Source: Ferrigenium straubiae
Lineage (GTDB): Bacteria; Pseudomonadota; Gammaproteobacteria; Burkholderiales; Gallionellaceae
Assembly: GCA_019449655.1 (NCBI GenBank)
Contig: JAHQXD010000001.1
Coordinates: 934,950-998,949, forward strand
DNA: 64,000 bases
Reading direction: 5' to 3'
In this document: positions 5,008-34,632 of the stretch, piece by piece
How the letters are laid out: each line of letters starts with the position of its first letter
How positions within the stretch are numbered: position 1 is the first letter of the stretch
The notes under the pieces: generated by a model
Databases searched by the model: none
What the model saw: the letters and a program-made list of their open reading frames with translations, nothing else
Told to the model about the DNA's origin: nothing
Program-made: the position numbers and the translations under genes

Positions 5008-5010
5008 CTC

Positions 5011-5592
5011 CTAGTGCGCAGGCACAGTCTCGGGTTTGGGGGACGTGTTCTCGGCTTCTGGCTTGGGCCAATGCCAGTTGGACAGCGTCACCGGATACTC
5101 AACCATGATGATGGCGTCGGTGGGGCAAACCTTGACGCACTTGGAACAGCCATGGCAGGCATCGATGATGATGGTGTGCATCAGCTTGTTCGCGCCCATG
5201 ATGGCGTCGGTCGAGCACTCCCGGATGCAGCGCGTGCAACCGATACAAAGATCCTCGATGATAAAGGCGTGCTCCGGCCCCTTGTCATCGAGTTCGGAGA
5301 GATCGGCCTCGATGCCCAGTTTGGCGGACAGCGCCTCGACCAGCGGCTTGCCGCCGGGCGCACACAGCATGATCGATGCCTCCTCGCCCTTAGCCAGCGC
5401 CGATGCATATTGGGCGCAACCGACATAGCCGCACTGGCCGCACTGCGAGCCGGGCATCATGGCCTTCAGCTCCTCTTCCAGCGGGTCCTCCTGCACTGCG
5501 AGACGGCGCGCAGCCACACCGAGGATGGCGCCCAGCGCAACACCGATTAACGTAAGACTACCGATAGCGATCAACATGCCAGACATAATCAA
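5011..5592 (-). CDS. rnfB: Electron transport complex subunit RnfB (Fe-S)
   Basis: 193 aa with an N-terminal membrane helix (about residues 4-28) and a cytoplasmic part carrying three cysteine groups. The first is the cluster motif CGQCGYVGC with a later Cys at LCAPGG. The other two are [4Fe-4S] motifs, CIGCTRCIRECS and CHGCSKCVKVCP. RnfB is the likely ferredoxin-docking subunit of the complex. It overlaps rnfA by 4 bp. The C-terminal extension rich in Pro/Glu after about residue 170 varies among relatives. Complete; family assignment is secure. Confidence 0.96.
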   Translation of the reverse strand: MIMSGMLIAIGSLTLIGVALGAILGVAARRLAVQEDPLEEELKAMMPGSQCGQCGYVGCAQYASALAKGEEASIMLCAPGGKPLVEALSAKLGIEADLSELDDKGPEHAFIIEDLCIGCTRCIRECSTDAIMGANKLMHTIIIDACHGCSKCVKVCPTDAIIMVEYPVTLSNWHWPKPEAENTSPKPETVPAH

Positions 5593-6170
5593 CTCGCCCC
5601 CATGCCCGAGAAACCCATGAATGCCAGCGCCAGCAAGCTGACCACGATGAAGGCGATCGGCGGGCCGACGAACAGGCGCGGCACATCCATCACGGCCAGC
5701 CGCTCACGCAGCCCGGCGAAAATGATCAGGACCAGGCTGAAACCCATGGCGGAACCGATGGCAAACAGGACGCTGGTAAGCATGCTCATCTTGGCGTCGA
5801 CCAGCAGCAGCGCGATGCCCAGCACGGCACAGTTGGTAGTGATCAGCGGCAGGTAGATGCCCAGCAACTGGAACAGCGACGGTGACACTTTTCTGACCAC
5901 CATTTCGGTGAACTGCACGGTGGAGGCGATGATCAGAATGAAGGTGATCGTGCGCAGATAGCCAAGTTCGAAAGGGGCCAGCAGCAGCGTGTTGACCGTC
6001 CAGCCCGCGATGGCCGCAACCGTCATCACAAATGTAGTCGCCATGCCCATGCCGACGGCGGCATCCAGGCGCGTGGTGACGCCCATGGTCGGGCACAGCC
6101 CGAGGAAACGGCCCAGAATGACGTTATTGACCAGCGCCGCGCTAAACATCAAGAGCAAATATTCTTTCAT
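5589..6170 (-). CDS. rnfA: Electron transport complex subunit RnfA
   Basis: 193-residue integral membrane subunit, related to NqrE, with about six helices. The N-terminal stretch NNVILGRFLGLCPTMGVT and the middle stretch LPLITTNCAVLGIALL each contain the conserved Cys (in GLCP and TNCA) expected for the cluster shared with RnfE. It is the first structural rnf gene here, 19 bp after rseC. This rnfABCDGE-H order matches the gammaproteobacterial and betaproteobacterial type of cluster. Confidence 0.96.
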   Translation of the reverse strand: MKEYLLLMFSAALVNNVILGRFLGLCPTMGVTTRLDAAVGMGMATTFVMTVAAIAGWTVNTLLLAPFELGYLRTITFILIIASTVQFTEMVVRKVSPSLFQLLGIYLPLITTNCAVLGIALLLVDAKMSMLTSVLFAIGSAMGFSLVLIIFAGLRERLAVMDVPRLFVGPPIAFIVVSLLALAFMGFSGMGAS

Positions 6171-8110: not shown

Positions 8111-10906
8111 TCAGACCGGCTCCTGGTACTGCTCCTCCAGCAGTTTGGCCTGTGCCGCCGCAAGGCGCGCGATAGGCACGCGCGGTCCGGAACAGGAGAC
8201 GTAATTGAGCCCAATATGGTGGCAGAAGCGGATCGAGCCGGGATGCCCGCCATGTTCTCCGCAGATGCCCATCTTCAGCTCCGGGTTAGTTCCCCTGCCC
8301 TTCGCCACGGCCATCTTCATCAACTGCCCCACTCCCTTGATATCCAGCACTTCGAAGGGGTTGTCTTCCAGGATGCCGGTTTCGTTGTAGGCGGGGAGGA
8401 ATTTGTTTTCCGCATCCTCACGGCTGAAGGAGAACGTGGCCTGGGTCAGGTCGTTGGTGCCGAAGGAGAAGAACTCGGCAGTTTCGGCCATGCGCCCGGC
8501 GCGCACGCAGGCGCGCACCACTTCCAGCATCGAGCCGAACTTGAACTGCACGTTGATGCCGTAGGTTGCGTTCACTTCCTGGTGGATGCGCTGCACGTAG
8601 CTGTGGATGCGCTTGAGCTCTTCCACCGTGGCGACCTGCGGCACCATGATTTCCGGATAGATTTCCACGCCGTCCTTGGCGCACAGCGCGGCGGCTTCCA
8701 GAATCGCGCGTATCTGCATCGAGTAGATTTCGGGATAGGTGATGCCCAGCCGCACGCCGCGATGGCCGAGCATCGGGTTGACTTCGGCCAGCGCCCTGAC
8801 CTTCTTCAGGATCACTTCCTTCTTGCCGATGACGTCTTCCTCCATGTGCGACTCCTTGAAGTCGCTCAGGCCGCCCATCAGCTTCATCAGGCCGTCGGCA
8901 TATTGCTGGTAGAGCTTGGGATTGAGCATCTTGAGCGTCTCCGGCAACTCTTCCAGGCCGTCGATGGTATCGCGCAACTGGTGCAGGTGCGCGATTTCCA
9001 GTTCGAGCTGCGCCGCAGTGGGCAGGAACTCATGCATCGGCGGGTCGAGCAGGCGCACGGTTACCGGCAACCCCTTCATCGCCTTGAAGATGCCCTTGAA
9101 GTCGGCGCGCTGGATCGGCAACAGGCGATCCAGTGCGGACTGGCGGGCTTCCGGCGTCTCGGCCAGGATCATTTCCTGAACGATCGGCAGCCGGTCGGTA
9201 CTGTTGAACATGCGCTCAGTGCGGCACAGGCCGATGCCCATCGCGCCGAACTCGCGCGCGCGCGAGGCGTCGCCGGGCGTATCCGCGTTCGCCAGCACCT
9301 TGAGCTTCGCCACCTCATCCGCCCAGGACAGCAGCGTGGCCAACTCCTCGGAGAACTCGGCCTCCACCGTCGGCACTTCGCCCGCGTAAACATGGCCGGT
9401 ACCGCCGTCGATGGTGACGACATCGCCCTCGTGCAGGGTAGTCTCGCCGATCTGCGCGCTGCGCAGCACGTCGTTGATGACGATCTGCTCGCAGCCCGAG
9501 ACGCAGGGCTTGCCCATGCCGCGCGCCACGACGGCGGCGTGCGAGGTCTTGCCGCCGCGGCTGGTGAGGATGCCCTGCGCCTGGAAGAAGCCGTGGATGT
9601 CCTCGGGCTTGGTCTCCTCGCGCACCAGGATGATCTTCTCGCCGGCGCGGCCGCGCGCCTCGGCGGTGTCGGCATCGAACACGATCTTGCCCGAGGCAGC
9701 GCCCGGCGATGCAGGCAGACCCTGCGCCAGCGACTTGCCGTGGAAGTTCGGCGCAAGCTGCGGAACCAGCAGCTGCTCCAGCACCGCAGGCTCGATGCGC
9801 AGCAGCGCGCGCTCCTTGGAAATCAGCCCCTCATGGAACATCTCCACCGAGGAGCGCACCATGCCGCGCGCATTCATCTTGCCGTTGCGCGTCTGCAGGC
9901 AATACAGGATGCCCTTCTCAATGGTGAACTCGAAATCCTGCACTTCGTGATAATGCGATTCCAGCCGGTTGTGCAGCGCCATCAGCTGACGGTATATCTC
10001 CGGCATCTCCTGCTCCATCTCGGCGATTGCCTTCGGCGTGCGGATCCCCGCAACCACATCCTCGCCCTGCGCATTGACCAGGTACTCGCCGTAAATAAGA
10101 TTTTCGCCGGTGCCGGGGTTGCGCGTGAAACCCACGCCGGTGCCGGAATCATTGCCCATGTTGCCGAACACCATGGTGCAGATGTTCACCGCCGTGCCGT
10201 TGGCCTGATCCCTGGTGATCTTGAACTGCTTGCGGTAATCCACCGCACGCTTGCCCATCCACGAGCCGAACACCGCGCCGATGGCGATTTCCAATTGCTC
10301 GTACGGGTCTTGCGGGAAGGGCTTGCCGGTATGGTGCTTGACGATATCGAGAAACTCACCCCCCAGTTCCTTGAGGTGTTCGGCGCTCAGATCTACATCC
10401 TGCGGTGCGCCGTATTTGCGCTTGATCGCAGCCATGCGCTCGTCGAAATGCTCGTCGCTGATGTTGAGCGCGATCTTGCCGAACAACTGGATGAAGCGGC
10501 GGTAGGCATCGTAGGCAAAGCGGGCATTGCCGGTTTGCTTGATCAGCCCCTGCAGCGAAGTTTCGTTGAGGCCGAGGTTGAGGATGGTGTCCATCATGCC
10601 CGGCATGGACATGGACGAGCCGGAACGCACCGAGATGAGCAGGGGGTTCGTGCCGCTGCCGAAGCCCTTGCCGGTCTTCTTTTCCAGCGCCAGCATGTGC
10701 TCCTTGACGGAGTCCATCAACCCATCAGGCAGCTTGTTCTTTTCCAGGTAGGCGGTACACGCGTCGGTGGTAATGGTAAATCCGGGGGGGACATTCAGAC
10801 CGATCTGGGTCATCTCGCACAGATTCGCACCCTTGCCGCCCAGCAACATCTTGTTTTTTCCGTCGCCTTCTTCGAAGGTATAGATGTATTTCTTGCCACT
10901 ACTCAT
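8111..10906 (-). CDS. ppdK: Pyruvate, phosphate dikinase
   Basis: 931 aa from the ATG at 10906 (MSSGKKYIY), preceded by a G-rich ribosome-binding stretch. A further 18 in-frame codons upstream are probably not translated. Domains run in order: N-terminal ATP-grasp (LLGGKGANLCEM, RSGSSMSMPGMMDT, TRNPGTGE), the swivelling phosphohistidine domain with GGKTSHAAVVARGMGKPCVSG (His456 is the phospho-carrier), and the C-terminal PEP/pyruvate barrel (GTNDLTQATFSFSRED, then ICGEHGGHP with the catalytic Cys). It interconverts pyruvate + ATP + Pi and PEP + AMP + PPi. Lying next to pyruvate:ferredoxin oxidoreductase, it could draw acetyl-CoA-derived pyruvate into PEP, or act in the glycolytic direction. 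Confidence 0.97.
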   Translation of the reverse strand: MSSGKKYIYTFEEGDGKNKMLLGGKGANLCEMTQIGLNVPPGFTITTDACTAYLEKNKLPDGLMDSVKEHMLALEKKTGKGFGSGTNPLLISVRSGSSMSMPGMMDTILNLGLNETSLQGLIKQTGNARFAYDAYRRFIQLFGKIALNISDEHFDERMAAIKRKYGAPQDVDLSAEHLKELGGEFLDIVKHHTGKPFPQDPYEQLEIAIGAVFGSWMGKRAVDYRKQFKITRDQANGTAVNICTMVFGNMGNDSGTGVGFTRNPGTGENLIYGEYLVNAQGEDVVAGIRTPKAIAEMEQEMPEIYRQLMALHNRLESHYHEVQDFEFTIEKGILYCLQTRNGKMNARGMVRSSVEMFHEGLISKERALLRIEPAVLEQLLVPQLAPNFHGKSLAQGLPASPGAASGKIVFDADTAEARGRAGEKIILVREETKPEDIHGFFQAQGILTSRGGKTSHAAVVARGMGKPCVSGCEQIVINDVLRSAQIGETTLHEGDVVTIDGGTGHVYAGEVPTVEAEFSEELATLLSWADEVAKLKVLANADTPGDASRAREFGAMGIGLCRTERMFNSTDRLPIVQEMILAETPEARQSALDRLLPIQRADFKGIFKAMKGLPVTVRLLDPPMHEFLPTAAQLELEIAHLHQLRDTIDGLEELPETLKMLNPKLYQQYADGLMKLMGGLSDFKESHMEEDVIGKKEVILKKVRALAEVNPMLGHRGVRLGITYPEIYSMQIRAILEAAALCAKDGVEIYPEIMVPQVATVEELKRIHSYVQRIHQEVNATYGINVQFKFGSMLEVVRACVRAGRMAETAEFFSFGTNDLTQATFSFSREDAENKFLPAYNETGILEDNPFEVLDIKGVGQLMKMAVAKGRGTNPELKMGICGEHGGHPGSIRFCHHIGLNYVSCSGPRVPIARLAAAQAKLLEEQYQEPV

Positions 10907-10997
10907 GACACCCCCCGTTAAAAATTTGCATATTATCGGCCTTTGCACAATCCATGACAAATGTCTTTACCACAATCACCGATCCGCAATGGCAACT

Positions 10998-11095: not shown

Positions 11096-14683
<3,588 letters not shown>

Positions 14684-15384: not shown

Positions 15385-16803
15385 GTGATAACAAAAATAC
15401 TTGTCGCCAACCGCGGTGAAATTGCGGTGCGCATCGTGCGCGCCTGCTCTGAAATGGGCATCAAGTCGGTCGCCATCTACACGGATGCCGACCGCCATGC
15501 GTTGCACGTCAAGAAAGCGGACGAGGCCTACCACATCGGTTCCGAGCCGGTCGCCGGTTACCTTAACGCCCACAACATCGTCAACATCGCGGTAACTTCG
15601 GGATGCGATGCGTTGCATCCGGGCTACGGCTTCCTCTCTGAAAACCCGGAATTGGCGGAAATTTGTGCCCGCCGCGACATCAAGTTTATCGGCCCTGACG
15701 CGGAGGTCATCCGCCAGATGGGCGACAAAGTCCAGGCGCGCAATGCCATGATCGCAGCGGGCATTCCTTGCGTGCCAGGCAGCGACGGCAATCTCGCCGA
15801 TGTGGAAGAGGCGCGTGCGCTGGCCAACAAAATAGGCTACCCCGTGATGCTCAAGGCCACAAATGGCGGCGGCGGACGCGGCATCCGCCGCTGCGACAAC
15901 GACAAGGACCTGGTCGGCAACTATGAGCGCGTGATTTCGGAAGCCAGCAAGGCCTTCGGCCAGCCGGAAGTCTTCCTGGAAAAATGCGTGGTCAATCCGC
16001 GGCATATCGAAGTGCAGGTGCTGGGCGACAGCCATGGCAACACGATCCACCTGTTCGAGCGCGACTGCTCCATCCAGCGCCGCAACCAGAAACTGATCGA
16101 GATCGCCCCCTCGCCGCAAATTAACGCAGAACAGCGCGAATATATCGGCAGCCTGGCCGTCAAGGCCGCTCGTGCCGTGGGCTACGAGAATGCGGGCACC
16201 GTCGAATTCCTGCTCGACCGGGACGGCAATTTCTACTTCATGGAAATGAACACCCGCGTCCAGGTCGAACACACCGTGACGGAAACCATTACCGGCATCG
16301 ACATCGTGCAGGAGCAGATCCGCATCGCCGACGGGCATGAGTTGCAATACAAGCAGGAAGACGTCCGGTTCCGCGGCTATGCCATGGAGTTCCGCATCAA
16401 TGCGGAAGACCCCAAGAACGGCTTCCTGCCGAGCTTCGGCAAGATCACCCGCTACTATGCGCCAGGCGGCCCCGGCGTGCGCATCGACGCCGCCATGTAC
16501 AGCGGCTACGAGATACCGCCCTACTTCGATTCCATGTGCGCCAAGCTCACCGTCTGGGCGCTCACCTGGGACGGCGTCGTCGAACGCGGCCGCCGCGCGC
16601 TCAAGGACATGCTGATCTACGGCGTCAAGACGACCATCCCGTACTATCAGGAAATCCTGAAACACCCCGACTTCAGAAATGCGGACTTCAACACAGGGTT
16701 CGTGGAATCCCATCCGGAATTGATCGACTACACCACGAAAATCCCGCCGGAACTTAGGGCAGCAGCCATCTCGGCCGTGATCGCGGCGCACGAAGGCATT
16801 TAA
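15385..16803 (+). CDS. pycA: Pyruvate carboxylase subunit A (biotin carboxylase)
   Basis: 472-residue biotin carboxylase. The GTG start has AGGA seven bases upstream. Family features are ILVANRGEIAVRI at the start, LHPGYGFLSEN, the Gly-rich ATP-grasp loop KATNGGGGRGIRRC (about residue 160), the HIEVQVLGDSHGN stretch, FMEMNTRVQVEHTVTE (active site) and RINAEDP. In acetyl-CoA carboxylase, accC normally neighbours accB. Here it precedes a carboxyltransferase-biotin protein, so a two-subunit pyruvate carboxylase is the better reading. It carboxylates biotin using ATP and bicarbonate. Forms an operon with pycB, 25 bp downstream. Confidence 0.93.
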   Translation: MITKILVANRGEIAVRIVRACSEMGIKSVAIYTDADRHALHVKKADEAYHIGSEPVAGYLNAHNIVNIAVTSGCDALHPGYGFLSENPELAEICARRDIKFIGPDAEVIRQMGDKVQARNAMIAAGIPCVPGSDGNLADVEEARALANKIGYPVMLKATNGGGGRGIRRCDNDKDLVGNYERVISEASKAFGQPEVFLEKCVVNPRHIEVQVLGDSHGNTIHLFERDCSIQRRNQKLIEIAPSPQINAEQREYIGSLAVKAARAVGYENAGTVEFLLDRDGNFYFMEMNTRVQVEHTVTETITGIDIVQEQIRIADGHELQYKQEDVRFRGYAMEFRINAEDPKNGFLPSFGKITRYYAPGGPGVRIDAAMYSGYEIPPYFDSMCAKLTVWALTWDGVVERGRRALKDMLIYGVKTTIPYYQEILKHPDFRNADFNTGFVESHPELIDYTTKIPPELRAAAISAVIAAHEGI

Positions 16804-16828: not shown

Positions 16829-18664
16829 ATGGCAAAAACCCTTATTTCCGAACTGGTGCTGCGTGACGGCCATCAATCCGTGATCGCGACGCGCATGCGC
16901 ACCGAAGACATGCTGCCCATCTGCCACAAGCTCGATAGCATCGGTTTCTGGTCGCTGGAAGCCTGGGGCGGCGCGACCTTCGACTCCTGCGTGCGCTTCC
17001 TGAAGGAAGACCCTTGGGAGCGCCTCAGGAAACTGCGCAAGGCCCTGCCGAACACCCGCATCCAGATGCTGCTGCGCGGCCAGAACCTGCTCGGCTACCG
17101 CCACTATTCCGACGACGTGGTGCGCGCCTTCGCCGCCAAGGCCGCGGACAACGGCATCGATGTGTTCCGCATCTTCGACGCGATGAACGACCTGCGCAAT
17201 CTGCGCGTCTCGGTCGAGGCAGTGAAAAAAGCCGGCAAGCATGCCGAGGGCTGCATCAGCTACACCACCAGCCCGGTGCACGGCATTCCCCAGTTCATCG
17301 AACTCGCAAAAGAGCTGGAAGCGATGGGCTGCGACACGATCTGCATCAAGGACATGGCCGGCCTGCTCACGCCTTATGCGGCCACCGACCTGGTCAAGGC
17401 GTTGCGCGCCGCCGTCGGCCTGCCTATCCATCTGCACAGCCACGCAACCTCCGGCCTCTCCGGCATGAGCTTCCTCAAGGCCGTGGAAGCGGGTGCCACC
17501 ATGCTGGATACCTGCAACTCCTCCTTCGGCGAAGGCGCGAGCCACTCCTCGACCGAGAGCATTGTGGCCGCGCTGAAAGGCACTCCATACGACACCGGCC
17601 TCGACCTCGCGGCGATCCAGGAAGTCACCGCCTATTTCTACGAGGTGCGCCAGAAGTACTGGCAGTACGAGAGCGCGTTCACCGGCGTGGATACGCGCGT
17701 GCTGGTGAACCAGGTGCCGGGCGGCATGATTTCAAACCTGTCCAACCAGCTCAAGGAACTGGGCGCGCTCAACCGCATGAACGAGGTGCTCGCCGAAATC
17801 CCATTGGTACGCGAAGATCTGGGCTACCCGCCGCTGGTCACGCCGACCTCGCAGATCGTCGGCACACAGGCGGTCATGAACGTCCTGACCGGCGCGCGCT
17901 ACAAATCGGTCACCAATGAAGTCAAGAACTACCTGCTCGGCCACTACGGCAAGGCGCCGGGCAAAGTCAATGAACAGATCAGGAAGCTCGCGGTCGGCGA
18001 CGCGGAAGTCGTGACCTGCCGCCCGGCGGATCTGCTCGAAGACGAGATGAACAAGCTCAGGATCACGTGCGAAGACCTGGCGAAGAGCGAGGAAGATGTC
18101 CTCACCTATGCCATGTTCCCGGATATTGCGAAGACCTTTCTGCAGGAGCGCAACGCCGGCACGCTCAAGCCGGAGCCGCTGCTATCCAAAGAGGCCGCCA
18201 CCACCTCCTCCGAACGCTACGCACCCAATGAATTCAAGGTGACGCTGCACGGTGAAACCTTCCACATCAAGCTCACCGGCAGTGGACACCACGGCGAAGC
18301 CCAGCGCCCGTTCTACGTATCCGTCGACGGCATTTCCGAAGAAGTCATTGTCGAGACCCTGAACGAGATCGAGGTTTCCGGCGGCAAGGGTAACGGCAAG
18401 AAAAAAACTGCCGCCCCGGCATCGGGCACCGGACGCCCGCGCCCCTCCCACGAGGGCTGCGTGACGACCGCCATGCCCGGCACCATCGTCGACGTCAAGG
18501 TCAAGGCCGGAGACAAGGTCGAGGCCGGAGATGGCGTACTGGTCATCGAAGCCATGAAGATGGAAAACGAAATCCAGGCGCCTCTGAGCGGCGTCGTCAT
18601 CGGCGTCCATGTCAAAAAGGGCGACAGCGTAGCGCCGGATGAAACCCTGGTTGAGATACAGTAA
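16829..18664 (+). CDS. pycB: Pyruvate carboxylase subunit B (carboxyltransferase + biotin carrier)
   Basis: 611 aa. The N-terminal HMGL-like carboxyltransferase barrel has ELVLRDGHQS, the metal-binding HLHSHATSG, and DTCNSSFGEGASHSST. A conserved carboxylase domain follows (about residues 300-460). A Gly/Lys/Pro linker leads to a biotinyl domain with EAMKMENEI, where Lys577 would carry biotin. The architecture is shared by two-subunit pyruvate carboxylase B and oxaloacetate decarboxylase alpha. No membrane beta or gamma decarboxylase subunit is nearby, and a biotin carboxylase is directly upstream, so oxaloacetate formation is favoured. Confidence 0.92.
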   Translation: MAKTLISELVLRDGHQSVIATRMRTEDMLPICHKLDSIGFWSLEAWGGATFDSCVRFLKEDPWERLRKLRKALPNTRIQMLLRGQNLLGYRHYSDDVVRAFAAKAADNGIDVFRIFDAMNDLRNLRVSVEAVKKAGKHAEGCISYTTSPVHGIPQFIELAKELEAMGCDTICIKDMAGLLTPYAATDLVKALRAAVGLPIHLHSHATSGLSGMSFLKAVEAGATMLDTCNSSFGEGASHSSTESIVAALKGTPYDTGLDLAAIQEVTAYFYEVRQKYWQYESAFTGVDTRVLVNQVPGGMISNLSNQLKELGALNRMNEVLAEIPLVREDLGYPPLVTPTSQIVGTQAVMNVLTGARYKSVTNEVKNYLLGHYGKAPGKVNEQIRKLAVGDAEVVTCRPADLLEDEMNKLRITCEDLAKSEEDVLTYAMFPDIAKTFLQERNAGTLKPEPLLSKEAATTSSERYAPNEFKVTLHGETFHIKLTGSGHHGEAQRPFYVSVDGISEEVIVETLNEIEVSGGKGNGKKKTAAPASGTGRPRPSHEGCVTTAMPGTIVDVKVKAGDKVEAGDGVLVIEAMKMENEIQAPLSGVVIGVHVKKGDSVAPDETLVEIQ

Positions 18665-19697: not shown

Positions 19698-19917
19698 ACC
19701 CGTCCTTTGCGCCGCAGGCGCCGCTAAAAAAGCGAAAAAAGAAGGTTGATGGCCGGAAGATTTTTGAAGTAACATCGTGCCTCCGCGCATCCCGAATGAA
19801 CGACATTCCGGCAATGCAGCAAAACATCCTGATGGTGCAGCAAAAAAACACAAGCCGAAGCGGCATGCCAGCCGGAACGGCAGACAGAAACAAACTTTAA
19901 CCAAAACGGGAAATTCC

Positions 19918-21501
19918 ATGACTCTGATGATAGGAATCCCGCGGGAAACCGCCGCGGGAGAAAAACGTGTTGCGACTGTTCCTGAAGTCGTAGAGAAACT
20001 TATCAAGCTGGGCTTCAAGGTCGCCGTCGAATCCGGCGCCGGTGATGCGGCAAATTTCAGCGACGACACTTACCGTGCCGCAGGCGCGGAAATTATCGAC
20101 GGCACGGCCAAACTGTGGGCCGCGTCCGACATCGTTTTCAAGGTATGCGTGCCGACAACGGAAGAGGTCGGCCTGATGCGCGAAGGCGGCACCCTGATCG
20201 GCTTCGTCTGGCCGGCGCAAAATCCGGAATTGATGCAGCAACTGGCGGCGAAGAAGGCCACTGTGCTGGCCATCGACGCGCTGCCGCGCCAGCTTTCCCG
20301 CGCGCAGAAGATGGACGCCCTGACCTCGCAGGCCGGTGTTGCCGGCTACCGCGCCGTGATCGAGGCCGCCAATGCCTTCGGCCGCTTCTTCAACGGCCAG
20401 ATCACCGCTGCGGGCAAGGTTCCTCCAGCCAAGGTCTTCATCGCCGGCGCCGGCGTGGCGGGCCTCGCGGCCATCGGCACCGCAGCCGGCCTGGGCGCGA
20501 TCGTGCGCGCCAACGACACCCGTGCCGAAGTGGCCGACCAGGTCGTGTCGCTGGGTGGCGAATTCGTCAAGGTCGATTACGAGGAGGAAGGCTCCGGCGG
20601 CGGCGGCTACGCCAAGGTGATGAGCGAGGGCTTCCAGCAGGCCCAGCGCGAGATGTACACCAAGCAGGCCAAGGAATGCGACATCATCATCACCACCGCG
20701 CTGATCCCTGGCAAACCCGCACCCCGGCTGATCACCGCCGAGATGGTGCAGAGCATGAAGCCCGGCAGCGTCATCGTGGACATGGCGGCCGAACGGGGTG
20801 GCAACTGCGAGCTGACCGAGCCCGGCAAGGCCGTGGTGAAGCACGGCGTGACCATCGTCGGCTATACCGATCTGCCCAGCCGCCTGGCCAAGCAGTCCTC
20901 GACGCTGTATGCGACCAACCTGTTCCGCCTCACCGAGGAACTGTGCAAGGCCAAGGATGGCAACATCAACGTCAACATGGACGACGACGCCATCCGCGGC
21001 CTGACGGTCATCAAGGAAGGCGAGGTCACCTGGCCGGCGCCCGCGCCCAAACTGCCGGCTGCACCGGCCAAACCGGCTGCGGCAAAGGCGGCTGCACCCG
21101 CCGCCAAAGGCCACGGCCATGGCGGCAGCAGCGAGCCAATGGCTGGCGGCAAACTGGCGATCATGTTCGGCGTCGCCACAGTCCTGTTCTGGTTCGTCGG
21201 TGCCTTCGCGCCCGCTGCCTTCCTCGGGCATTTCACGGTGTTCGTGCTGGCCTGCTTCGTCGGCTACATGGTGGTGTGGAACGTCACTCCCGCCTTGCAC
21301 ACCCCGCTGATGAGCGTGACCAATGCGATCAGCAGCATCATCGCCATCGGTGCGCTGGTGCAGGTCGCGCCGCCGGTCGGCGGAGCTGATGGCAGGGGTC
21401 TTATCCTCGGCCTCGCCGTCGCCGCCTTGGCGCTCACCGCAGTCAACATGTTCGGTGGTTTTGCCGTCACCCAGCGCATGCTGGCGATGTTCCGCAAATA
21501 A
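19918..21501 (+). CDS. pntA: NAD(P) transhydrogenase subunit alpha
   Basis: 527 aa from the ATG at 19918 (MTLMIGIPRE). The frame extends 47 codons upstream, but that part is low-complexity and unlike PntA. The NAD(H)-binding domain I has AGEKRVATVPE and the Rossmann motif VFIAGAGVAGLAAIGTA (about residue 180). An Ala/Pro linker (about 380-400) joins a C-terminal membrane part of four helices. The single-chain alpha form matches the E. coli length (510 aa). With PntB it couples proton entry to NADPH formation from NADH. Preceded by a 220-bp gap that should hold its own promoter. Confidence 0.96.
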   Translation: MTLMIGIPRETAAGEKRVATVPEVVEKLIKLGFKVAVESGAGDAANFSDDTYRAAGAEIIDGTAKLWAASDIVFKVCVPTTEEVGLMREGGTLIGFVWPAQNPELMQQLAAKKATVLAIDALPRQLSRAQKMDALTSQAGVAGYRAVIEAANAFGRFFNGQITAAGKVPPAKVFIAGAGVAGLAAIGTAAGLGAIVRANDTRAEVADQVVSLGGEFVKVDYEEEGSGGGGYAKVMSEGFQQAQREMYTKQAKECDIIITTALIPGKPAPRLITAEMVQSMKPGSVIVDMAAERGGNCELTEPGKAVVKHGVTIVGYTDLPSRLAKQSSTLYATNLFRLTEELCKAKDGNINVNMDDDAIRGLTVIKEGEVTWPAPAPKLPAAPAKPAAAKAAAPAAKGHGHGGSSEPMAGGKLAIMFGVATVLFWFVGAFAPAAFLGHFTVFVLACFVGYMVVWNVTPALHTPLMSVTNAISSIIAIGALVQVAPPVGGADGRGLILGLAVAALALTAVNMFGGFAVTQRMLAMFRK

Positions 21502-21535
21502 CTAGGCCGTAGAAAACAATACAAGGTAATCAATC

Positions 21536-22957
21536 ATGTCTGAAAGCTTGGCAACAGTTTCATATATCGGCGCAACGATACTCTTTATCCTGAGTCTCGG
21601 CGGCCTGTCCCATCCGGAAACCTCGCGGCGCGGTAACCTCTACGGCATGATCGGTATGGCGCTTGCCGTACTGGCCACCATCTTCGGCCCGCGTGTCACC
21701 ATGGCCGGCATTCCGTGGATCGTCGGCGCCATGGTAGTCGGCGGCAGCGTCGGCATCTACGCCGCGCGCGTGGTAAAAATGACGCAGATGCCCGAACTGG
21801 TCGCGCTGATGCACAGTCTGGTCGGCCTGGCCGCCTGCCTGGTCGGGTTTGCAAATTACATCGACCCGGCGGCAGCGGCCAATTTATCCAGTGCCGAAAA
21901 AGCCATCCACGAGATGGAAATCTACATCGGCATCCTGATCGGCGCTGTGACCTTCTCCGGCTCGATCATCGCCTTCGGCAAACTGTCGGGCAAGATCGGC
22001 GGCAAGCCGCTGCTCCTGCCCGCACGCCACTGGATAAACCTTCTGGGCCTGCTGGTCGTTATTTTCTTCGGCTACAAGTTCCTCAATACGCACTCGGTTG
22101 CCGACGGCATGATCCCGTTGATCGTTATGACCGTGATCGCGCTGCTGTTCGGTATTCACATGGTGATGGCGATCGGCGGCGCGGACATGCCGGTGGTGGT
22201 GTCGATGCTGAACAGCTACTCCGGCTGGGCGGCGGCAGCAACCGGTTTCATGCTGTCGAACGACCTGCTGATCGTCACCGGCGCGCTGGTGGGTTCTTCC
22301 GGCGCGATCCTTTCCTACATCATGTGCCGCGCGATGAACCGCCACTTCATCAGCGTGATCGCGGGCGGCTTCGGCACCGGCAGCGGCGCACCTGCCGCAC
22401 CGAGCGGCGATGCACAACAACCGGCCGGCGAAGCGGTGCCGGTCAGCGCGGTCGAGACCGCAGAACTGCTGCGCGAAGCCAAGAACGTCATCATCGTGCC
22501 GGGCTACGGCATGGCGGTGGCGCAGGCACAGCACACGGTCTACGAGATCACCAAGCTGCTGCGCGAAAAAGGCGTCAACGTGCGTTTCGGCATCCACCCG
22601 GTCGCGGGCCGTATGCCCGGCCACATGAACGTGCTGCTCGCCGAAGCCAAGGTGCCCTACGACATCGTGCTGGAAATGGATGAGCTCAACGACGACTTCC
22701 CGTGCACCGATGTCGCGATGGTGATCGGTGCCAACGACATCGTGAACCCGGCCGCGCAGGACGATCCGAACAGCCCGATCGCCGGCATGCCGGTGCTGGA
22801 AGTATGGAAGGCCAAGACTTCGATCGTGATGAAGCGCAGCATGGCCTCCGGCTACGCGGGCGTCGACAATCCGCTCTTCTACAAGGAGAACAACCGCATG
22901 TTGTTCGGCGACGCAAAGAAAATGCTGGACGAGGTGCTTGCCTCGCTGAAAGCATAG
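21536..22957 (+). CDS. pntB: NAD(P) transhydrogenase subunit beta
   Basis: 473 aa with about eight or nine N-terminal membrane helices and a C-terminal NADP(H)-binding domain III. The latter has [18 protein letters not shown] (about residue 320), [20 protein letters not shown] and [17 protein letters not shown], all typical of PntB. It lies 34 bp after pntA and is followed by a strong stem-loop. In this carbon-metabolism neighbourhood it would supply NADPH. Complete and normal in length. Confidence 0.97.
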
Positions 22958-27002: not shown

Positions 27003-28724
27003 ATGCAAGGCAAAACCAAGAACGATCTGATCATCCGAATCGGCGGTGAAGGCGGTGAGGGTGTCATCTCAGTAGGCGATTTCATCACTCAGGCCTGCGC
27101 ACGCGCCGGTCTCGACGTCTACACATTCAAGACTTTCCCGGCCGAAATCAAGGGTGGCTACGCGATGTACCAGGTGCGTGCCAGCACCGAACGGGTATAC
27201 AACCAGGGCGACATCTTCGACGTCCTGTGCGCCTTCAACGGCGAAGCGTACAACATGAACCGCGCCTTCCTCCGGCCTGGCACCGCCATCGTCTACGACA
27301 GCCCGAGCGACTTCACGCCGGACATTCCGGAAGGCGTACACGCTTACCCTATCCCGATGACCCAGACAGCCAAGGAATTGAACAACCCGCGCGCCAAGAA
27401 CATGGTGGCGATGGGTGCGCTGTCGGAACTGTTCAACATTCCGGTGGAATCCCTGCGTGAAGTGCTCACCACCAAGTTCGCGCGCAAGGGCGAGGATGTG
27501 GTGCAGGGCAACCTGAAAGCGCTGGAGCGCGGCCGCGAACTGGCCGCTGCGCTGAAAAAGACCGATCCATGGGCCATCGGCACACCCAAGTCCAAACAGG
27601 AAGTCATCGTGATGTCGGGCAATAACGCCATCGGCCTAGGCGCGATCATCGCGGGATTGGACTTCTTCTCCGCCTACCCCATCACCCCGGCGACCGAAGT
27701 CGCGATTTACGTCGCGAAGCACCTGCCCAAGCGCGGCGGCACCCTGATTCAGGCCGAAGATGAAATCGCCTCCATTTCCCAGGTTCTCGGCGCCTCCTAT
27801 GCGGGCAAGAAAGCAATGACCTCCACCTCCGGACCCGGCCTCGCACTGATGAGCGAGATGCTGGGCATGGCATTCATGGCCGAACTGCCTTGCGTGGTGG
27901 TCGACGTTCAGCGTGGCGGCCCCTCTACAGGCTTGCCGACCAAGCATGAGCAATCCGACCTGTTCCTGGCAATACACGGCGGCCATGGCGATGCCGGGCG
28001 CATCGTGCTGTCGGTGGAAAACGTCAAGGACTGCATCGACTTGACCGTCGTGGCGTTCAACCTCGCGGAAAAATACCAGTGCCCGGTGCTGTTGCTTTCC
28101 GACGGCTCCCTGGCGTTCTCGACCCAGAGCGTACCCTGCCCGAACCCGGCCGATTACAAGCTGGTGGAGCGCAAGCGCTGGAACGGCGAAGGCGAGTATC
28201 AACGCTACAAATTTACCGAAGACGGCATTTCACCGATGGCCGATCCCGGCACACCCGGCGGCTTGCACATCGCCACCGGCCTCGAACACAGCGAGAGCGG
28301 TCTGCCCAGCTACGCATCGGCCAACCATGAGGCCATGCAGGCCAAGCGTTTCAACAAGCTCAAGAACGTGGTCAACGATGTCGCTCCGGCGGAAGTGGAT
28401 GGCGAAGGCGCGGCAGACCTCGGCATCATCACTTGGGGCAGCACCATCGGCGTGGTGCGCGAAGCGCTGCAACGCCTGCGTGCCGAGGGATACAAGGTCA
28501 AGGGCTTCTATCCCAAGCTGCTGAACCCTCTGCCGGCGCAGCAATTCGAGGACTTCGGCGCATCGTGCAAGCGACTGCTGCTGCCTGAAGTCAACTTCCA
28601 GGGCCAGCTCGCGCACTTCGTGCGCGCGGAAACTTCGTTGCGCCCCGAGTCCTACACCATTTGCGGCGGAATGCCCTTCACGCCTGAAATGATAGTAAAC
28701 AAAGTCAAGGAGATACTGGCATGA
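27003..28724 (+). CDS. korA: 2-oxoglutarate:ferredoxin oxidoreductase, alpha subunit (gamma-alpha fusion)
   Basis: 573 aa. The N-terminal third is the gamma-type domain (IRIGGEGGEGVISVGDF at about 10-27). The remainder is the alpha domain, with SGNNAIGLGAIIAGLDFFSAYPITPATE (about 203-230, containing the YPITP motif) and GGPSTGLPTKHEQSDL (about 305-320). This fused form is common for bacterial KorA. It works with KorB to convert 2-oxoglutarate + CoA to succinyl-CoA + CO2 with ferredoxin, or the reverse carboxylation. Its last four bases overlap the korB start. Substrate specificity within the 2-oxoacid:ferredoxin family is by resemblance to Kor and not proven. Confidence 0.9.
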   Translation: MQGKTKNDLIIRIGGEGGEGVISVGDFITQACARAGLDVYTFKTFPAEIKGGYAMYQVRASTERVYNQGDIFDVLCAFNGEAYNMNRAFLRPGTAIVYDSPSDFTPDIPEGVHAYPIPMTQTAKELNNPRAKNMVAMGALSELFNIPVESLREVLTTKFARKGEDVVQGNLKALERGRELAAALKKTDPWAIGTPKSKQEVIVMSGNNAIGLGAIIAGLDFFSAYPITPATEVAIYVAKHLPKRGGTLIQAEDEIASISQVLGASYAGKKAMTSTSGPGLALMSEMLGMAFMAELPCVVVDVQRGGPSTGLPTKHEQSDLFLAIHGGHGDAGRIVLSVENVKDCIDLTVVAFNLAEKYQCPVLLLSDGSLAFSTQSVPCPNPADYKLVERKRWNGEGEYQRYKFTEDGISPMADPGTPGGLHIATGLEHSESGLPSYASANHEAMQAKRFNKLKNVVNDVAPAEVDGEGAADLGIITWGSTIGVVREALQRLRAEGYKVKGFYPKLLNPLPAQQFEDFGASCKRLLLPEVNFQGQLAHFVRAETSLRPESYTICGGMPFTPEMIVNKVKEILA

Positions 28725-29620
28725 ACGCGATCCTTCAACCGCACACCCACTTCAACAAGGTGGACTTCAAACCCAAGGATTTCAAGGATGAAAAGACGCC
28801 GGCATTCTGGTGCGCCGGCTGCGGCCACTACGGCGTATTGACAGGACTGTTGCGCGCGCTTTCCGAACTCGGCGTCGACCCGAACCATCTGGTGAGCGTT
28901 TCCGGGATCGGTTGCTCCTCGCGCCTGCCATACTTCGTCAATTCCTACAAGATGCACACCCTGCACGGCCGTGCGGGCCCCGTGGCAACGGGCGTGCATT
29001 TGGCGCGTCCGGATCTCGCGGTAGTGGTCAGTGGCGGCGATGGCGACGGCTTCTCCATCGGCGGCGGGCACATGCCGCATCTGGCGCGCAAGAATATCAA
29101 CATCACCTACATCCTGATGGACAACCACGTCTACGGCTTGACCAAGGGTCAATGCTCGCCCACCTCGCGCGAGGAGATGAAGGCCGCAGTTACCCCGTAT
29201 GGCGGCATGGAAGAGCCTCTGGATCCGATCCTGTACATGCTCACCTACGGTGCCACTTACGTCGGACAGGCGTTTGCCGGCAACGCCAAGCTGGGGGCAC
29301 AGCTCATCAAGGGTGGTATGGAACACAACGGATTCGCCTTCATCAACCTGCTCTCGCAATGCCCGTCATTCAACGAGCTGGATACCGCAGTGTCCTTCAG
29401 AAACGCCTGCGACGAGGTTGATCCTGCCCACGATATAAGCGACCTGAATGCCGCGATAAACGTGGTCACTGCGGCGAAAAAAGCCGGCCGCATCCCCACC
29501 GGGTTGCTGTACAAGACCGATCGCCCCGCCCTTCACGAGCGTATGGCAGAACTGGTCAAGCGCGTCGGCGGGCACAAGGACTATGATTTGAAGAAGATCA
29601 TCGACCTCTCGCGTCCATGA
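28721..29620 (+). CDS. korB: 2-oxoglutarate:ferredoxin oxidoreductase, beta subunit
   Basis: 299 aa, the TPP-binding subunit. Seen features are FWCAGCGHYGVL (Cys31, Cys34), the SGIGCSSRLPYF stretch, the TPP/Mg motif SGGDGDGFSIGGGH and DNHVYGLTKGQCSPTS. It has no extra ferredoxin domain, so electrons should leave through the TPP/Fe-S centre to a partner. Here the partner could be ferredoxin or the Fe-S/flavin proteins encoded immediately downstream. It overlaps korA and the next gene by 4 bp each, which favours a joint complex or at least equimolar production. Confidence 0.93.
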   Translation: MNAILQPHTHFNKVDFKPKDFKDEKTPAFWCAGCGHYGVLTGLLRALSELGVDPNHLVSVSGIGCSSRLPYFVNSYKMHTLHGRAGPVATGVHLARPDLAVVVSGGDGDGFSIGGGHMPHLARKNINITYILMDNHVYGLTKGQCSPTSREEMKAAVTPYGGMEEPLDPILYMLTYGATYVGQAFAGNAKLGAQLIKGGMEHNGFAFINLLSQCPSFNELDTAVSFRNACDEVDPAHDISDLNAAINVVTAAKKAGRIPTGLLYKTDRPALHERMAELVKRVGGHKDYDLKKIIDLSRP

Positions 29621-30288
29621 CGAAAAGCAATACCACGCCTGACGAAAACGACCAGCCCGTCGCCCTGACCATCAACGGCCTCGCCGTCAACGCCTCCGCG
29701 GACATGACCCTGGTCGAAGCCGCATGGCATGGCGGCGTGCCGCAGATAACGAGCGTCGGCTGCATGGAAGGGGTGTGTGGCTCCTGCCGTGTCATGTTGC
29801 GGCGTGGCAAGGAGGTGACGGTAAATCTCGCCTGCCAGACTTTCGTCGAGGACGGCATCGAGGTCGTATTCCTGCCGCCCGCATCGGCGCCCCGCCATCA
29901 TTACGAAATCAACGATTTCAAGGATGGCTGGGACATTCATGCACGCTTCCACAAAATTTTTCCCGAAGCATCGCGCTGTCGGCATTGCCACGGCTGCGTG
30001 CAGGCATGCCCCAAGGACATTGCCGTCGAGGACGGTGTCGCACTGGCTGCGGCAGGCCGCTACCGCGAGGCGGGGGAAGTATTTTTTGAATGCGTCATGT
30101 GCGAACTGTGCGACGCCGCCTGCCCGGAACTGATCGCCCCGGCTCATGTGGGCCTGTTCAGCCGGCGCGTAACGGCTCATTTTCATCTTCGCCCGCCCAA
30201 CCTGATTCACCGGCTGGAGGAGTTGCGCCAGGAGCGCATGAACACCTGCCGTGAGATGGTGGCAAAAAATGAAAATGACGAGGATTGA
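29617..30288 (+). CDS. Fumarate reductase/succinate dehydrogenase-type iron-sulfur protein
   Basis: 223 aa. The N-terminal [2Fe-2S] domain has Cys49, Cys54, Cys57 and Cys73 (GCMEGVCGSC ... NLACQ). The C-terminal alpha-helical domain has two cluster motifs, CRHCHGCVQACP and CVMCELCDAACP. This is the SdhB/FrdB layout, slightly short. There is no membrane-anchor gene next to it, so the complex is probably soluble. It overlaps korB by 4 bp and lies 6 bp before the flavoprotein gene. It should pass electrons between the FAD subunit, the NuoF-like subunit and possibly KorAB; this wiring is inferred from gene order. Confidence 0.85.
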   Translation: MTKSNTTPDENDQPVALTINGLAVNASADMTLVEAAWHGGVPQITSVGCMEGVCGSCRVMLRRGKEVTVNLACQTFVEDGIEVVFLPPASAPRHHYEINDFKDGWDIHARFHKIFPEASRCRHCHGCVQACPKDIAVEDGVALAAAGRYREAGEVFFECVMCELCDAACPELIAPAHVGLFSRRVTAHFHLRPPNLIHRLEELRQERMNTCREMVAKNENDED

Positions 30289-30294
30289 TCGAAG

Positions 30295-31887
30295 ATGAGT
30301 AATGGCATCCCTCTGGCCGAAGCGCTGGCTCGCTACCGCGCTGATGCAGATCTCGATCCGCCACCCGAACTGGCCGATATCGACGCGCTGCTCAACACCT
30401 ACCACCCAGACCACCTGCAAGGCAGCGTGGTCAAGCTGGCAGTCGGCCCCAACGCGGGCGACAATTGCCAGCGCGAACTGGCTGGACTCTTGCAGACCGA
30501 GGCATTTATCGACGAAGCCGACCTGGCTGGCGCTCCGGTAACCGATATCGACGTGCTGGTGATCGGCGGCGGCGGTGCAGGCTGCGCAGCGGCGCTGGCA
30601 GCGGCCGAAAACGGTGCGCGCGTCCTGCTGGCCACCAAGCTGCGCCTCGGCGACAGCAATACGGTCATGGCCGAAGGCGGCATTCAGGCCGCCATCGAGC
30701 CTGAAGACTCGATCCAGCGCCATATCCAGGACACCCTGCGCGGCGGCCACAATGTCGGCGACCCTGCGCTGGTCTCCGCCTTGGCCGGGGACGGCCCGGA
30801 GGCGCTGCAATGGCTGATCAACCTCGGCATGCAGCTCGACCAGACACCCAGCGGCGACCTGCATACGCGGCGTGCGGGCGGCATGAGCACTCCTCGCCTC
30901 GTCCATTGTCGTGACTATACCGGCCTGGAAATGATGCGCGTACTGCGCGAGGCCGTCATCCAGCATCACAGCATCGAAGTCTGGGAGCAAAGCCCCGCCG
31001 TCGAACTGCTGTCCAACGAAGTCGGCCAGAAATGCGTCGGCGCGGTGCTCACCTCGCTGCTGGACGGCCGGCCGCGCATCGTGCGCACCCGCTCCGTCAT
31101 CCTGGCAACCGGAGGGCTGGGGCGGCTGCACCTGAACGGTTTCCCGACCTCCAATCATCTCGGCGCAACGGGCGACGGCCTGGTGCTGGCGTACCGTATC
31201 GGCGCACGCCTGTGCGAGCTGGATTCCTTCCAATACCACCCGACTGGCCTGCTGCATCCTGCCCATCTGGCGGGGAAGCTGGTGACCGAAGGCATACGTG
31301 CGGCAGGCGCCCTGCTGATAAATGGCCTCGGACAGCGCTTCATTGATGAACTCCAGCCGCGTGACGTGGTATGCGCCGCCATCCTGCGCGAGTGCAGGGA
31401 GGGACGCGGGGTTCGTGTTGACGACCAGCGCACCGGCGTATGGCTCGACACACCGCGCCTGGAACGCGCCCAACCGGGAGTACTGGAAAAGCAATTTACC
31501 AGCCTGATGACACGCACCCATGTCGCGGGCATCGACCCGCGTCGTGAGCCCCTGCTGGTCCATCCGACCCTGCACTACCAGAACGGCGGCGCGGTCATCG
31601 ATACCAACGGCGCCACCACCGTTCCCGGCCTGTATGCGGTGGGCGAAGTATCGGGAGGCATCCACGGGCGCAACCGCCTCATGGGCAACGCCCTGCTCGA
31701 AATCATCAGCTTCGGCCGCCGCGCCGGCGCGGCGGCTACCGCCGACCGCGACCGCGGCCCGAAGAAGGTCACCCTTGAACACGTGAACCGGATGCGCCGC
31801 GCCCTGACCCTCGCGGGACAGCCCATGACGCAGCGCGCACCGCAGGTATTGCCTGATTATGCAGCAGGAGGCATATGGAACCGCTGA
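30295..31887 (+). CDS. FAD-dependent fumarate reductase/succinate dehydrogenase-like flavoprotein
   Basis: 530 aa. A helical N-terminal extension of about 85 residues precedes the Rossmann motif VIGGGGAGCAAAL (about 90-102). Other FrdA/SdhA/NadB features are SNTVMAEGGIQAA (Asn where SdhA has its FAD-linking His, so FAD is probably non-covalent), FQYHPTGL, ELQPRD with the conserved Arg, and IHGRNRLMGNALLE. The active-site loop that reads TEG-x-RGEG in FrdA reads TEGIRAAG here, so the Glu is absent. It may therefore not be a standard fumarate reductase. Overlaps the NuoF-like gene by 13 bp. Confidence 0.82.
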   Translation: MSNGIPLAEALARYRADADLDPPPELADIDALLNTYHPDHLQGSVVKLAVGPNAGDNCQRELAGLLQTEAFIDEADLAGAPVTDIDVLVIGGGGAGCAAALAAAENGARVLLATKLRLGDSNTVMAEGGIQAAIEPEDSIQRHIQDTLRGGHNVGDPALVSALAGDGPEALQWLINLGMQLDQTPSGDLHTRRAGGMSTPRLVHCRDYTGLEMMRVLREAVIQHHSIEVWEQSPAVELLSNEVGQKCVGAVLTSLLDGRPRIVRTRSVILATGGLGRLHLNGFPTSNHLGATGDGLVLAYRIGARLCELDSFQYHPTGLLHPAHLAGKLVTEGIRAAGALLINGLGQRFIDELQPRDVVCAAILRECREGRGVRVDDQRTGVWLDTPRLERAQPGVLEKQFTSLMTRTHVAGIDPRREPLLVHPTLHYQNGGAVIDTNGATTVPGLYAVGEVSGGIHGRNRLMGNALLEIISFGRRAGAAATADRDRGPKKVTLEHVNRMRRALTLAGQPMTQRAPQVLPDYAAGGIWNR

Positions 31888-33149
31888 TCGTTGAAACGCC
31901 CCACCTCGGGGCGGTCCAGGTGCTACTCCATGCAGACCGGTGCGTCGGTGCAGACATGGCCCGCTGGCGCAGTTCCGGCGGTGGTGTGGCGCTGGCACGC
32001 GCCATAAAGGACCCCGCCGCCGTGCGCGAGGAAGTGAAGCAGGCCGACCTGCGCGGCCTGGGCGGCAGCGGCTTCCCGGCCTGGCGCAAGTGGGAATTTG
32101 TCGCCGCCGAGGCACCGAAGCCGGACAAGTACCTGATCGTGAACGGCAACGAGGACGAGCCCGGCACCTTCAAGGATCGCCTACTGCTCGAGAAAACCCC
32201 CCATCAGGTGATCGAGGGCGCGGTGGTGACGGCGCTGGCGATCGGCGCCAACCGCGTCAGGTTCTACACCAACCCCGACCTGGCTCGCCCGCTGGCCGCG
32301 ATGAAAGCTGCGCTCGAGCAATGGCAGGCCTCCGGCCTGCTGGAACAGGCCTCGGCCGCGCTCGGCATGCCGCTGGAACTCAAGCTGCTGCCCGGCTCCG
32401 GACACTATATCGGCGGCGAGGAAACGGCTGCCATGGAATGGGTCGAGGGGCGCTTCCCCTTCCCGCGCGGCAAGCCGCCCTACCCGGCGCAGTCCGGCGT
32501 GCACGGCTGCCCGACGCTGATCAATAACGTCGAAACCATCAGCAACGTGCCGCAGATCGTGGCACAGGGTGGCGCATGGTTCCGCGCCCTCGGCAAGGCG
32601 CAGGGCAGCGGCACCAAGCTGTATTCCCTGAGCGGCGACGTGCTGCACCCCGGCGTCTACGAGCTGCCGATGGGCACGCCGCTGCGCGAACTCATCTTCG
32701 ATCACGGCGGCGGTCTGCTCTCGGGCAAGCAGCCCAAGGCAGTGTTCACCGGCGGGCCTTCGAGCACCATGCTGACCCCGGTCGACCTCGACGTGGCGAT
32801 GGATTTCGACTCGCTGCGCGCGCGCGGCGCCAACCTCGGCACGGGCGCGATGATCGTCATTTCGGAGGGCACCGGCATCGTCAAGCGGGTGGCCGAGTAC
32901 GAGCGCTTCTTCGCCCATTCCTCGTGCGGCCAATGCAACTCATGCAAGGTCGGCACCGCCAATATGAGCCGTTTGCTCGACCGGATCGACACCGGATGCG
33001 GCACTGCGGCCGATCTCGCCACGCTGAAGAACCTGTGCGCCATGCTGCCCGGCAGCGGCCGCTGCCACCTCGTCAACGGCGCCGTGGCACTGTTCGACAG
33101 TGCCTTCCACCACTTCCCGGAAGAGTTCCGGCAGGCGCTGAAGCACTAG
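31875..33149 (+). CDS. NuoF-like NADH-binding flavoprotein
   Basis: 424 aa, a NuoF/HydB-type subunit. Seen features are LRGLGGSGFPAWRKW (FMN/NADH site), VNGNEDEPGTFKDR, the GHYIGGEETA motif, an SLBB region, and the C-terminal [4Fe-4S] motif SSCGQCNSCKVGT with a further Cys at GSGRCHL. No nuoE or nuoG partner is adjacent. As the last gene of the kor operon, it would give the complex access to NAD(H). Together with the Fe-S and FAD subunits this forms a likely soluble NADH-linked redox module attached to KorAB or to a fumarate-reductase-like enzyme. The wiring is inference. Confidence 0.85.
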   Translation: MEPLIVETPHLGAVQVLLHADRCVGADMARWRSSGGGVALARAIKDPAAVREEVKQADLRGLGGSGFPAWRKWEFVAAEAPKPDKYLIVNGNEDEPGTFKDRLLLEKTPHQVIEGAVVTALAIGANRVRFYTNPDLARPLAAMKAALEQWQASGLLEQASAALGMPLELKLLPGSGHYIGGEETAAMEWVEGRFPFPRGKPPYPAQSGVHGCPTLINNVETISNVPQIVAQGGAWFRALGKAQGSGTKLYSLSGDVLHPGVYELPMGTPLRELIFDHGGGLLSGKQPKAVFTGGPSSTMLTPVDLDVAMDFDSLRARGANLGTGAMIVISEGTGIVKRVAEYERFFAHSSCGQCNSCKVGTANMSRLLDRIDTGCGTAADLATLKNLCAMLPGSGRCHLVNGAVALFDSAFHHFPEEFRQALKH

Positions 33150-33159: not shown

Positions 33160-33217
33160 CCGCGAATAACACGAAGCACGCGAAGAAAAACTTCGTGATC
33201 TTCGTGCACTTCGTGGT
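33160..33217. repeat. Imperfect inverted repeat (cacgaag / cttcgtg type)
   Basis: CACGAAGCACGCGAAG (33170-33185) is nearly complementary to CTTCGTGCACTTCGTG (33200-33215), matching 13 of 16, around a short spacer that itself contains CTTCGTG. It lies in the 140-bp gap between the NuoF-like gene and amrB. It looks like a small dispersed palindromic element that could also act as a transcription end. Confidence 0.5.
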
Positions 33218-34631: not shown

Positions 34632-34632
34632 G

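Follow-up and report, generated by a model that had tools for sequence, protein, structure and literature searches.

Five consecutive genes in a 64,000-nucleotide stretch of the Ferrigenium straubiae genome (hereafter the window; G000:C4:934950-998949, 60.8% G+C) encode a two-subunit 2-oxoacid oxidoreductase, KorAB, followed by an iron-sulfur protein, a flavoprotein and an NADH/FMN subunit, which we call FrdB, FrdA and NuoF and, together, the trio. Based on the collective evidence from the window, from the rest of the host genome (G000; 2,659,708 bases, 99.99% complete) and from related genomes, we understand the five genes as encoding two separate enzymes of the same limb of the reductive tricarboxylic acid (TCA) cycle, KorAB and a soluble NADH:fumarate reductase, and we give this reading a probability of roughly 0.65. 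The two would be encoded together, and presumably co-transcribed, because with succinyl-CoA synthetase they form that limb. The genes are as follows.

27003..28724, forward strand: korA, 2-oxoacid:acceptor oxidoreductase alpha subunit (fused gamma-alpha), 573 aa; TIGR03710 648.9 bits; PDB 6n2n_A 915.8 bits, residues 6-571.
28721..29620, forward strand: korB, beta subunit with the thiamine diphosphate domain, 299 aa; TIGR02177 273.6 bits; PDB 6n2n_B 419.5 bits.
29617..30288, forward strand: frdB-like relay protein with a [2Fe-2S] and two CxxCxxCxxxCP [4Fe-4S] motifs, 223 aa.
30295..31887, forward strand: frdA-like flavoprotein, 530 aa; FAD_binding_2 267.6 bits; alignment of 81 rows plus the genome's own SdhA and NadB.
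31875..33149, forward strand: nuoF-like NADH/FMN subunit with [4Fe-4S] cysteines, 424 aa; Complex1_51K 135 bits.

The genes follow one another with 4-bp overlaps at korA-korB and korB-frdB, a 6-bp gap between frdB and frdA and a 13-bp overlap between frdA and nuoF; ATG is the start codon of all five, and AGGAGG precedes the nuoF-like start. KorA exceeds the cut-off of TIGR03710 (482.75) and KorB that of TIGR02177 (261.9), and FrdA and the NuoF-like protein pass the Pfam cut-offs of FAD_binding_2 and Complex1_51K, respectively. The gene content and tight spacing described in an earlier, sequence-only reading of this DNA are thus confirmed, and so is its claim that membrane anchor, nuoE and nuoG are missing, none of them being seen within the five-gene run. 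Its label of an SdhB/FrdB-type protein stands on the cluster motifs and the FrdA-like neighbour, not on profile score: the TfrB, SdhB/FrdB and HoxU models match the protein about equally, at 24-25 bits, all under the NCBIfam cut-off. Two further NuoF-like genes lie elsewhere in the genome.

Both KorAB subunits match, over their full length, the two subunits of 6n2n, a PDB entry that carries the name 'pyruvate flavodoxin/ferredoxin oxidoreductase' and that we take to be the 2-oxoglutarate enzyme of Magnetococcus marinus. The likeness to this two-subunit 2-oxoglutarate:ferredoxin oxidoreductase (6n2n/6n2o) extends to both proteins but not to the operon context, and the substrate of KorAB is a prediction. 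As such, KorAB would be a ferredoxin-dependent 2-oxoglutarate synthase, forming 2-oxoglutarate from succinyl-CoA, CO2 and reduced ferredoxin. A small ferredoxin gene was not found in the window among open reading frames of 40-140 codons carrying CxxCxxCxxxC; the ferredoxin would probably be supplied by Rnf, which is encoded in the same window. The idea that KorAB replaces a missing 2-oxoglutarate dehydrogenase is weakened by sucA, a gene that this genome carries along with 52 others of the 61 in our genus sample (53 in all).

The trio is a conserved module. From 80 named loci, the best 80 of 389 found, we extracted 71 FrdB, 80 FrdA and 66 NuoF sequences and dropped three short or broken NuoF, so that, with the window included, 72 FrdB, 81 FrdA and 64 NuoF rows were counted. 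FrdA belongs to the superfamily of fumarate reductase, succinate dehydrogenase and aspartate oxidase, and its H315, E332, R356, H427 and R461, which we take to be the residues of the fumarate (dicarboxylate) site, are invariant (81/81 rows). Equally constant is Asn122 (81/81), at a position where the genome's own SdhA has a His that is presumably the FAD-linking residue of SdhA-type enzymes. Ala194 stands where the own NadB has a Glu, presumably the substrate-loop residue of L-aspartate oxidase; together with a NadB model score of 318.2 bits against a cut-off of 452.75, this sets FrdA apart from the L-aspartate oxidases. FrdB keeps 12 cysteines in 72/72 rows (C49, C54, C57, C73 and those of two CxxCxxCxxxCP motifs), so that both [4Fe-4S] motifs are complete and the [3Fe-4S] pattern, which marks quinone-linked enzymes, is lacking. 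In NuoF, C351, C354 and C357 occur in 64/64 rows and C397 in 63/64. With membrane succinate dehydrogenase/fumarate reductase the trio therefore shares the FAD-domain family and the active-site residues, but it differs from that enzyme in having no anchor in the run, Asn122 in place of the FAD-linking His and two [4Fe-4S] motifs without the [3Fe-4S] pattern, an NADH subunit replacing the quinone site. FrdA as the genome's sole succinate dehydrogenase or aspartate oxidase was considered and rejected, SdhA and NadB being encoded elsewhere.

In a tree of 43 selected FrdA rows, SdhA and NadB sit apart on a long branch and four rows of the tFrd type form one clade. The best named FrdA matches come mostly from bins of Candidatus Ferrigenium, Gallionella and Nitrosomonadales, at 84-94% identity; a 91% match on a short contig binned as Opitutia (L027) is probably a binning error. 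The structure model of FrdA (mean pLDDT 64) was set aside. That of FrdB (pLDDT 86) gave only local matches in Foldseek, with TM <=0.34 by query length among the 50 matches listed, and on further comparison its two domains match separately.

On the evidence of these residues, the trio is suggested to be a soluble, quinone-independent NADH:fumarate reductase. Electrons would pass from NADH to FMN on the NuoF-like subunit, on to its [4Fe-4S] cluster and into the clusters of the FrdB-like protein, and from there to a non-covalent FAD on FrdA, where fumarate would be reduced to succinate. Succinyl-CoA synthetase would then stand between the trio and KorAB and complete a limb from fumarate to 2-oxoglutarate. 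An NADH-dependent reductase of some other unsaturated acid is an unlikely alternative, for which one may cite the scores of FrdA below all curated cut-offs, the roughly 85 residues that precede its FAD domain and the occurrence of FrdA in Nitrosomonas mobilis and Nitrotoga (L079, L088) at loci where 6 kb around it contain no Kor; it is countered by the retention of the fumarate-site residues and by the TCA genes that lie beside the trio in more than one lineage (Kor, sucCD, aconitase, isocitrate dehydrogenase (IDH), ATP citrate lyase (ACL), Mdh).

Gene neighbourhoods at the 80 named loci place the trio repeatedly beside Kor. KorAB and the trio are together at 34 loci, at nine the trio is followed by a divergent Kor, and three loci, close relatives of each other, have the trio with sucC; a further 11 show the trio on short flanks with no Kor seen. 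FrdBA without a NuoF seen accounts for six loci (one with short flank) and FrdA without a FrdB match for nine (three with short flank). At L018 and L020, aclL-acn-idh lies directly upstream of korAB. Separately, at L056, L060, L061, L064 and L071, one clade of the tree, the pair FrdB-FrdA lies divergently to genes for aconitase and transhydrogenase, and no NuoF was seen with it. A second Kor lineage, with 36-40% identity to the window KorA in class genomes, comes in the order trio, Kor, 823-aa protein, RnfB-like, PorA-like. Because two divergent Kor lineages thus adjoin the trio in opposite gene orders, the arrangement argues for functional coupling and not only for common descent. As a side observation, the 823-aa protein (L069, 16761-19229, between korB and the RnfB-like and PorA-like genes) has only a C-terminal ferredoxin domain (PF13370) recognised, and relatives of it occur at L080, L081, L089-L091, L167, L169 and L171-L175.

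Functional coupling could also take another form, in which KorAB oxidises 2-oxoglutarate and the trio is its electron outlet, electrons flowing through FrdB and NuoF to NAD+ with FrdA as a structural or side partner. The tight korAB-frdB order with its 4-bp overlaps would suit such a device, as would the Kor enzymes with an additional NAD(P)H-linking subunit to which the sequence-only reading pointed. It is nonetheless quite improbable, as the active-site residues of FrdA are invariant, sucA is present, the trio is also found without a nearby Kor and it precedes Kor in the second lineage.

Two separate enzymes of one limb are also favoured by the distribution of the genes, which was surveyed in the 61 genus genomes and in a class sample of 370, where at most three candidates were scored per genome and misses are possible. 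The sequence-only reading had named rarity of the five-gene order in other genomes as the observation that would count against it; within the genus and its neighbours the genes are not rarely together, the order being complete in 14 of the 15 genus genomes that have this KorA (window genome included), and in the fifteenth a contig end falls inside korB. FrdA matches were obtained in 18/370 class genomes, 14 of the trio type (at least 554 bits) and four of the tFrd type (433-438 bits). Kor was detected in 81/370 class genomes and is enriched in those with the trio type (10/14 vs 71/356 others, p = 7e-5), standing beside the trio in 8/14.

In the genus sample, ACL occurs in 19/61 genomes, any Kor at cut-off in 21/61 and both in 18 (p = 2e-11); the window-type KorA is found in 15/61 and a second type, OorA, in 9/61. 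Among the 19 ACL genomes, eight have only KorAB, four only the OorA type, six both and one, 66% complete, neither. The trio was read in seven of the eight KorAB-only genomes, the remaining one (G062) being cut; the OorA-type cluster was read in G005, G007, G013, G061 and part of G020, and judged from single matches in G016, G064, G068, G074 and G083. From this split, KorAB and the trio seem able, as far as gene content can tell, to serve where the Hdr-type module of the OorA cluster is absent. Pyruvate:ferredoxin oxidoreductase (PFOR) accompanies ACL in 17/19 genus genomes vs 6/42 others, and G081 and G021 have the five genes together with ACL and PFOR.

The host genome encodes the rest of the cycle. 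Outside the window, AclS, AclL, Acn, IDH, SucC and SucD are encoded on one strand (L134), and this ATP-citrate-lyase-like/aconitase/isocitrate dehydrogenase/sucCD run would close the limb to a reductive TCA cycle. The citrate-binding domain PF16114 is recognised in AclS (59.5 bits, cut-off 26.8), and in the PDB both AclS and AclL find their best matches in the subunits of citryl-CoA synthetase (6hxq), at 121 bits each. With ATP citrate lyase genes and genes for 2-oxoglutarate and pyruvate:ferredoxin oxidoreductases, the genome has a reductive TCA gene set; RuBisCO, SdhA, NadB and sucA are encoded as well. Upstream of the five genes, a run at 1105-22957 of the window, which also includes an ApbE-like gene, holds the proposed ferredoxin supply and several genes of pyruvate and NAD(P) metabolism.

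1105..6170, reverse strand: rnfA, rnfB, rnfC, rnfD, rnfG and rnfE, ion-translocating ferredoxin:NAD oxidoreductase (proposed ferredoxin supply); NCBIfam subfamily models, all six over cut-off.
8111..10960, reverse strand: pyruvate, phosphate dikinase; TIGR01828 1308.5 bits.
11096..14683, reverse strand: PFOR, 1195 aa; TIGR02176 1768.3 bits.
15385..16803, forward strand: biotin carboxylase subunit, adjoining the pyruvate carboxylase B gene; NF005525 917.5 bits.
16829..18664, forward strand: pyruvate carboxylase subunit B / oxaloacetate decarboxylase alpha type; NF006761 909 bits.
18684-19697: HpcH/HpaI aldolase/citrate-lyase family gene, 337 aa, between the carboxylase and pntA; PF03328 41.1 bits.
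19777..22957, forward strand: pntA and pntB, NAD(P) transhydrogenase; NF006942 799.1 bits, NF006974 723.2 bits.

Just 3' of nuoF, at 33160-33230, the words CTTCGTG and CACGAAG are, by eye, repeated and inverted, possibly as a repeat element or terminator. The genes at 33291-35721 recur beside the operon in several relatives; one encodes a radical SAM protein (34633-35721), and two others presumably resemble Memo and AMMECR1. Farther downstream, Pfam identifies the product of 53099-56860 as the alpha subunit of a respiratory nitrate reductase and that of 56988-58667 as an MFS transporter, and the open reading frames at 51516-53063 and 50976-51506 look to us like nitrate reductase beta and delta subunits.

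The residues, the neighbour genes and the rest of the genome all fit the reductive-TCA pair, Kor plus NADH-fumarate reductase, that the sequence-only reading had offered as one of its two options. Several observations weigh against it. FrdA falls under every NCBIfam cut-off among the matches listed, the best TfrA model reaching 345.4 bits against a cut-off of 718, and Pfam recognises nothing in AclL beyond roughly residue 285, over its C-terminal two thirds. At eight of the 80 named loci the trio has 6 kb of sequence on both flanks and no Kor in either, and 4/14 trio-type class genomes show no Kor among the up to three candidates scored per genome. ACL was found in only 5/370 class genomes, the window genome and the four of the tFrd type, which leaves 13/14 trio-type genomes without it; trio and Kor are thus no mark of a closed cycle. 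The single-contig genome G063 (L137) has the five genes and neither ACL nor PFOR at the cut-offs used. Lastly, sucA, with its wide distribution in the genus, implies an oxidative cycle too.

The other option had been one large complex, possibly bifurcating. It would consist of five subunits, with exergonic electron transfer from NADH to fumarate driving low-potential electrons to KorAB, and would be a smaller analogue of the Hdr-Flx/Oor/Tfr system that has been proposed for tubeworm symbionts. One tight gene run does hold two enzymes that between them use NADH and ferredoxin, and eight of the 19 ACL genomes have only the KorAB-type module while four others have only the OorA-type/Hdr module, for which PMC6315080 proposes bifurcation; the FrdB-like model, moreover, matches subunits of bifurcating enzymes locally. 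The residues of NuoF point the other way. Those separating bifurcating from NADH-only homologues are given in section 17 of PMC7311640: bifurcating proteins have A or E and M in the NADH region, F near FMN and a GGPSG motif. Aligned with 7t2r_B, a subunit of a bifurcating hydrogenase, the window NuoF has T98 and K100 vs A and M, Y178 vs F, and GGPSS vs GGPSG. Across the family, T98, K100 and Y178 are present in 64/64 rows and GGPSG in 0/64, a non-bifurcating pattern by criteria derived from hydrogenases, formate dehydrogenases and complex I, of which GGPSG, one residue off GGPSS, is the weakest. The run also has no NuoE-like subunit, NuoG or extra Fe-S domain, the trio occurs without Kor nearby at the eight loci noted above, and the Rnf genes in the window offer an alternative source of ferredoxin. 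The single complex is thus very unlikely. Very doubtful, too, is the bolder proposal built on it, in which the five subunits KorAB-FrdBA-NuoF form a minimal machine that powers the synthesis of 2-oxoglutarate by reducing fumarate with NADH, in place of the much larger Hdr-Flx-Oor-Tfr system. Ferrigenium from nitrate-reducing cultures that oxidise Fe(II) would then be autotrophs using both the Calvin cycle and the reductive TCA cycle.

The operon has analogies to known systems. Reportedly, Hydrogenobacter thermophilus, a reductive TCA organism, has a soluble NADH-dependent fumarate reductase (Miura 2008); likened by description and not by sequence, that enzyme is soluble and NADH-linked as well but has five subunits from scattered genes vs three in one run here. 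According to PMC6315080, tubeworm symbionts and Thioflavicoccus carry genes of both the Calvin cycle and the reductive TCA cycle, and in them a tfrAB/korABCD/hdr-flx cluster resembles our operon in combining Kor, a fumarate-reductase-like pair and NADH input in a genome with ACL-type genes; a dimeric korAB lies elsewhere in the symbiont genome, and the available account of the symbiont cluster makes no mention of NuoF. The operon differs from that cluster in its two-subunit Kor and its NuoF and in the absence of Hdr/Flx, and its FrdA is 43-45% identical to the FrdA of such clusters in related genomes. Both modules, KorAB-trio and OorA-type/Hdr, occur within the same genus. In four class genomes, AclL relatives (68-70%) adjoin tFrd, rubrerythrin-like, Hdr and Oor genes, the arrangement that the same excerpts of PMC6315080 give for type II ACL. 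From the available part of PMC11636981, a dimeric korAB and a 'PFOR-like' gene respond together in Endoriftia; this locus is perhaps of the kind seen in L069, L080, L089 and L090.

The finding also bears on how freshwater iron oxidisers are viewed. In the parts available to us, the Gallionellaceae papers PMC10734482, PMC10734462, PMC12607638 and PMC12622760 mention RuBisCO or the Calvin cycle; the term 'citrate lyase' appears nowhere in the main text of PMC10734462, PMC12607638 or PMC12622760, and the available part of PMC11366258 names the reductive TCA cycle for a mixed culture containing Gallionellaceae. A search of titles and abstract starts in the open-licence literature, supplements excluded, found no report of a reductive TCA cycle in Gallionellaceae, and a search of titles and abstract starts in that literature found no paper on the FrdB-FrdA-NuoF trio. 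What emerges is a candidate NADH:fumarate reductase, soluble and made of three subunits, that ranges across Gallionellaceae and sulfur oxidisers; in addition, freshwater iron oxidisers, usually described as Calvin-cycle carbon fixers, are seen to carry a set of reductive TCA genes. As 'Ca. F. straubiae' KS has been isolated (PMC12622760), the organism itself is open to the question of which pathway would fix carbon in the presence and in the absence of oxygen.

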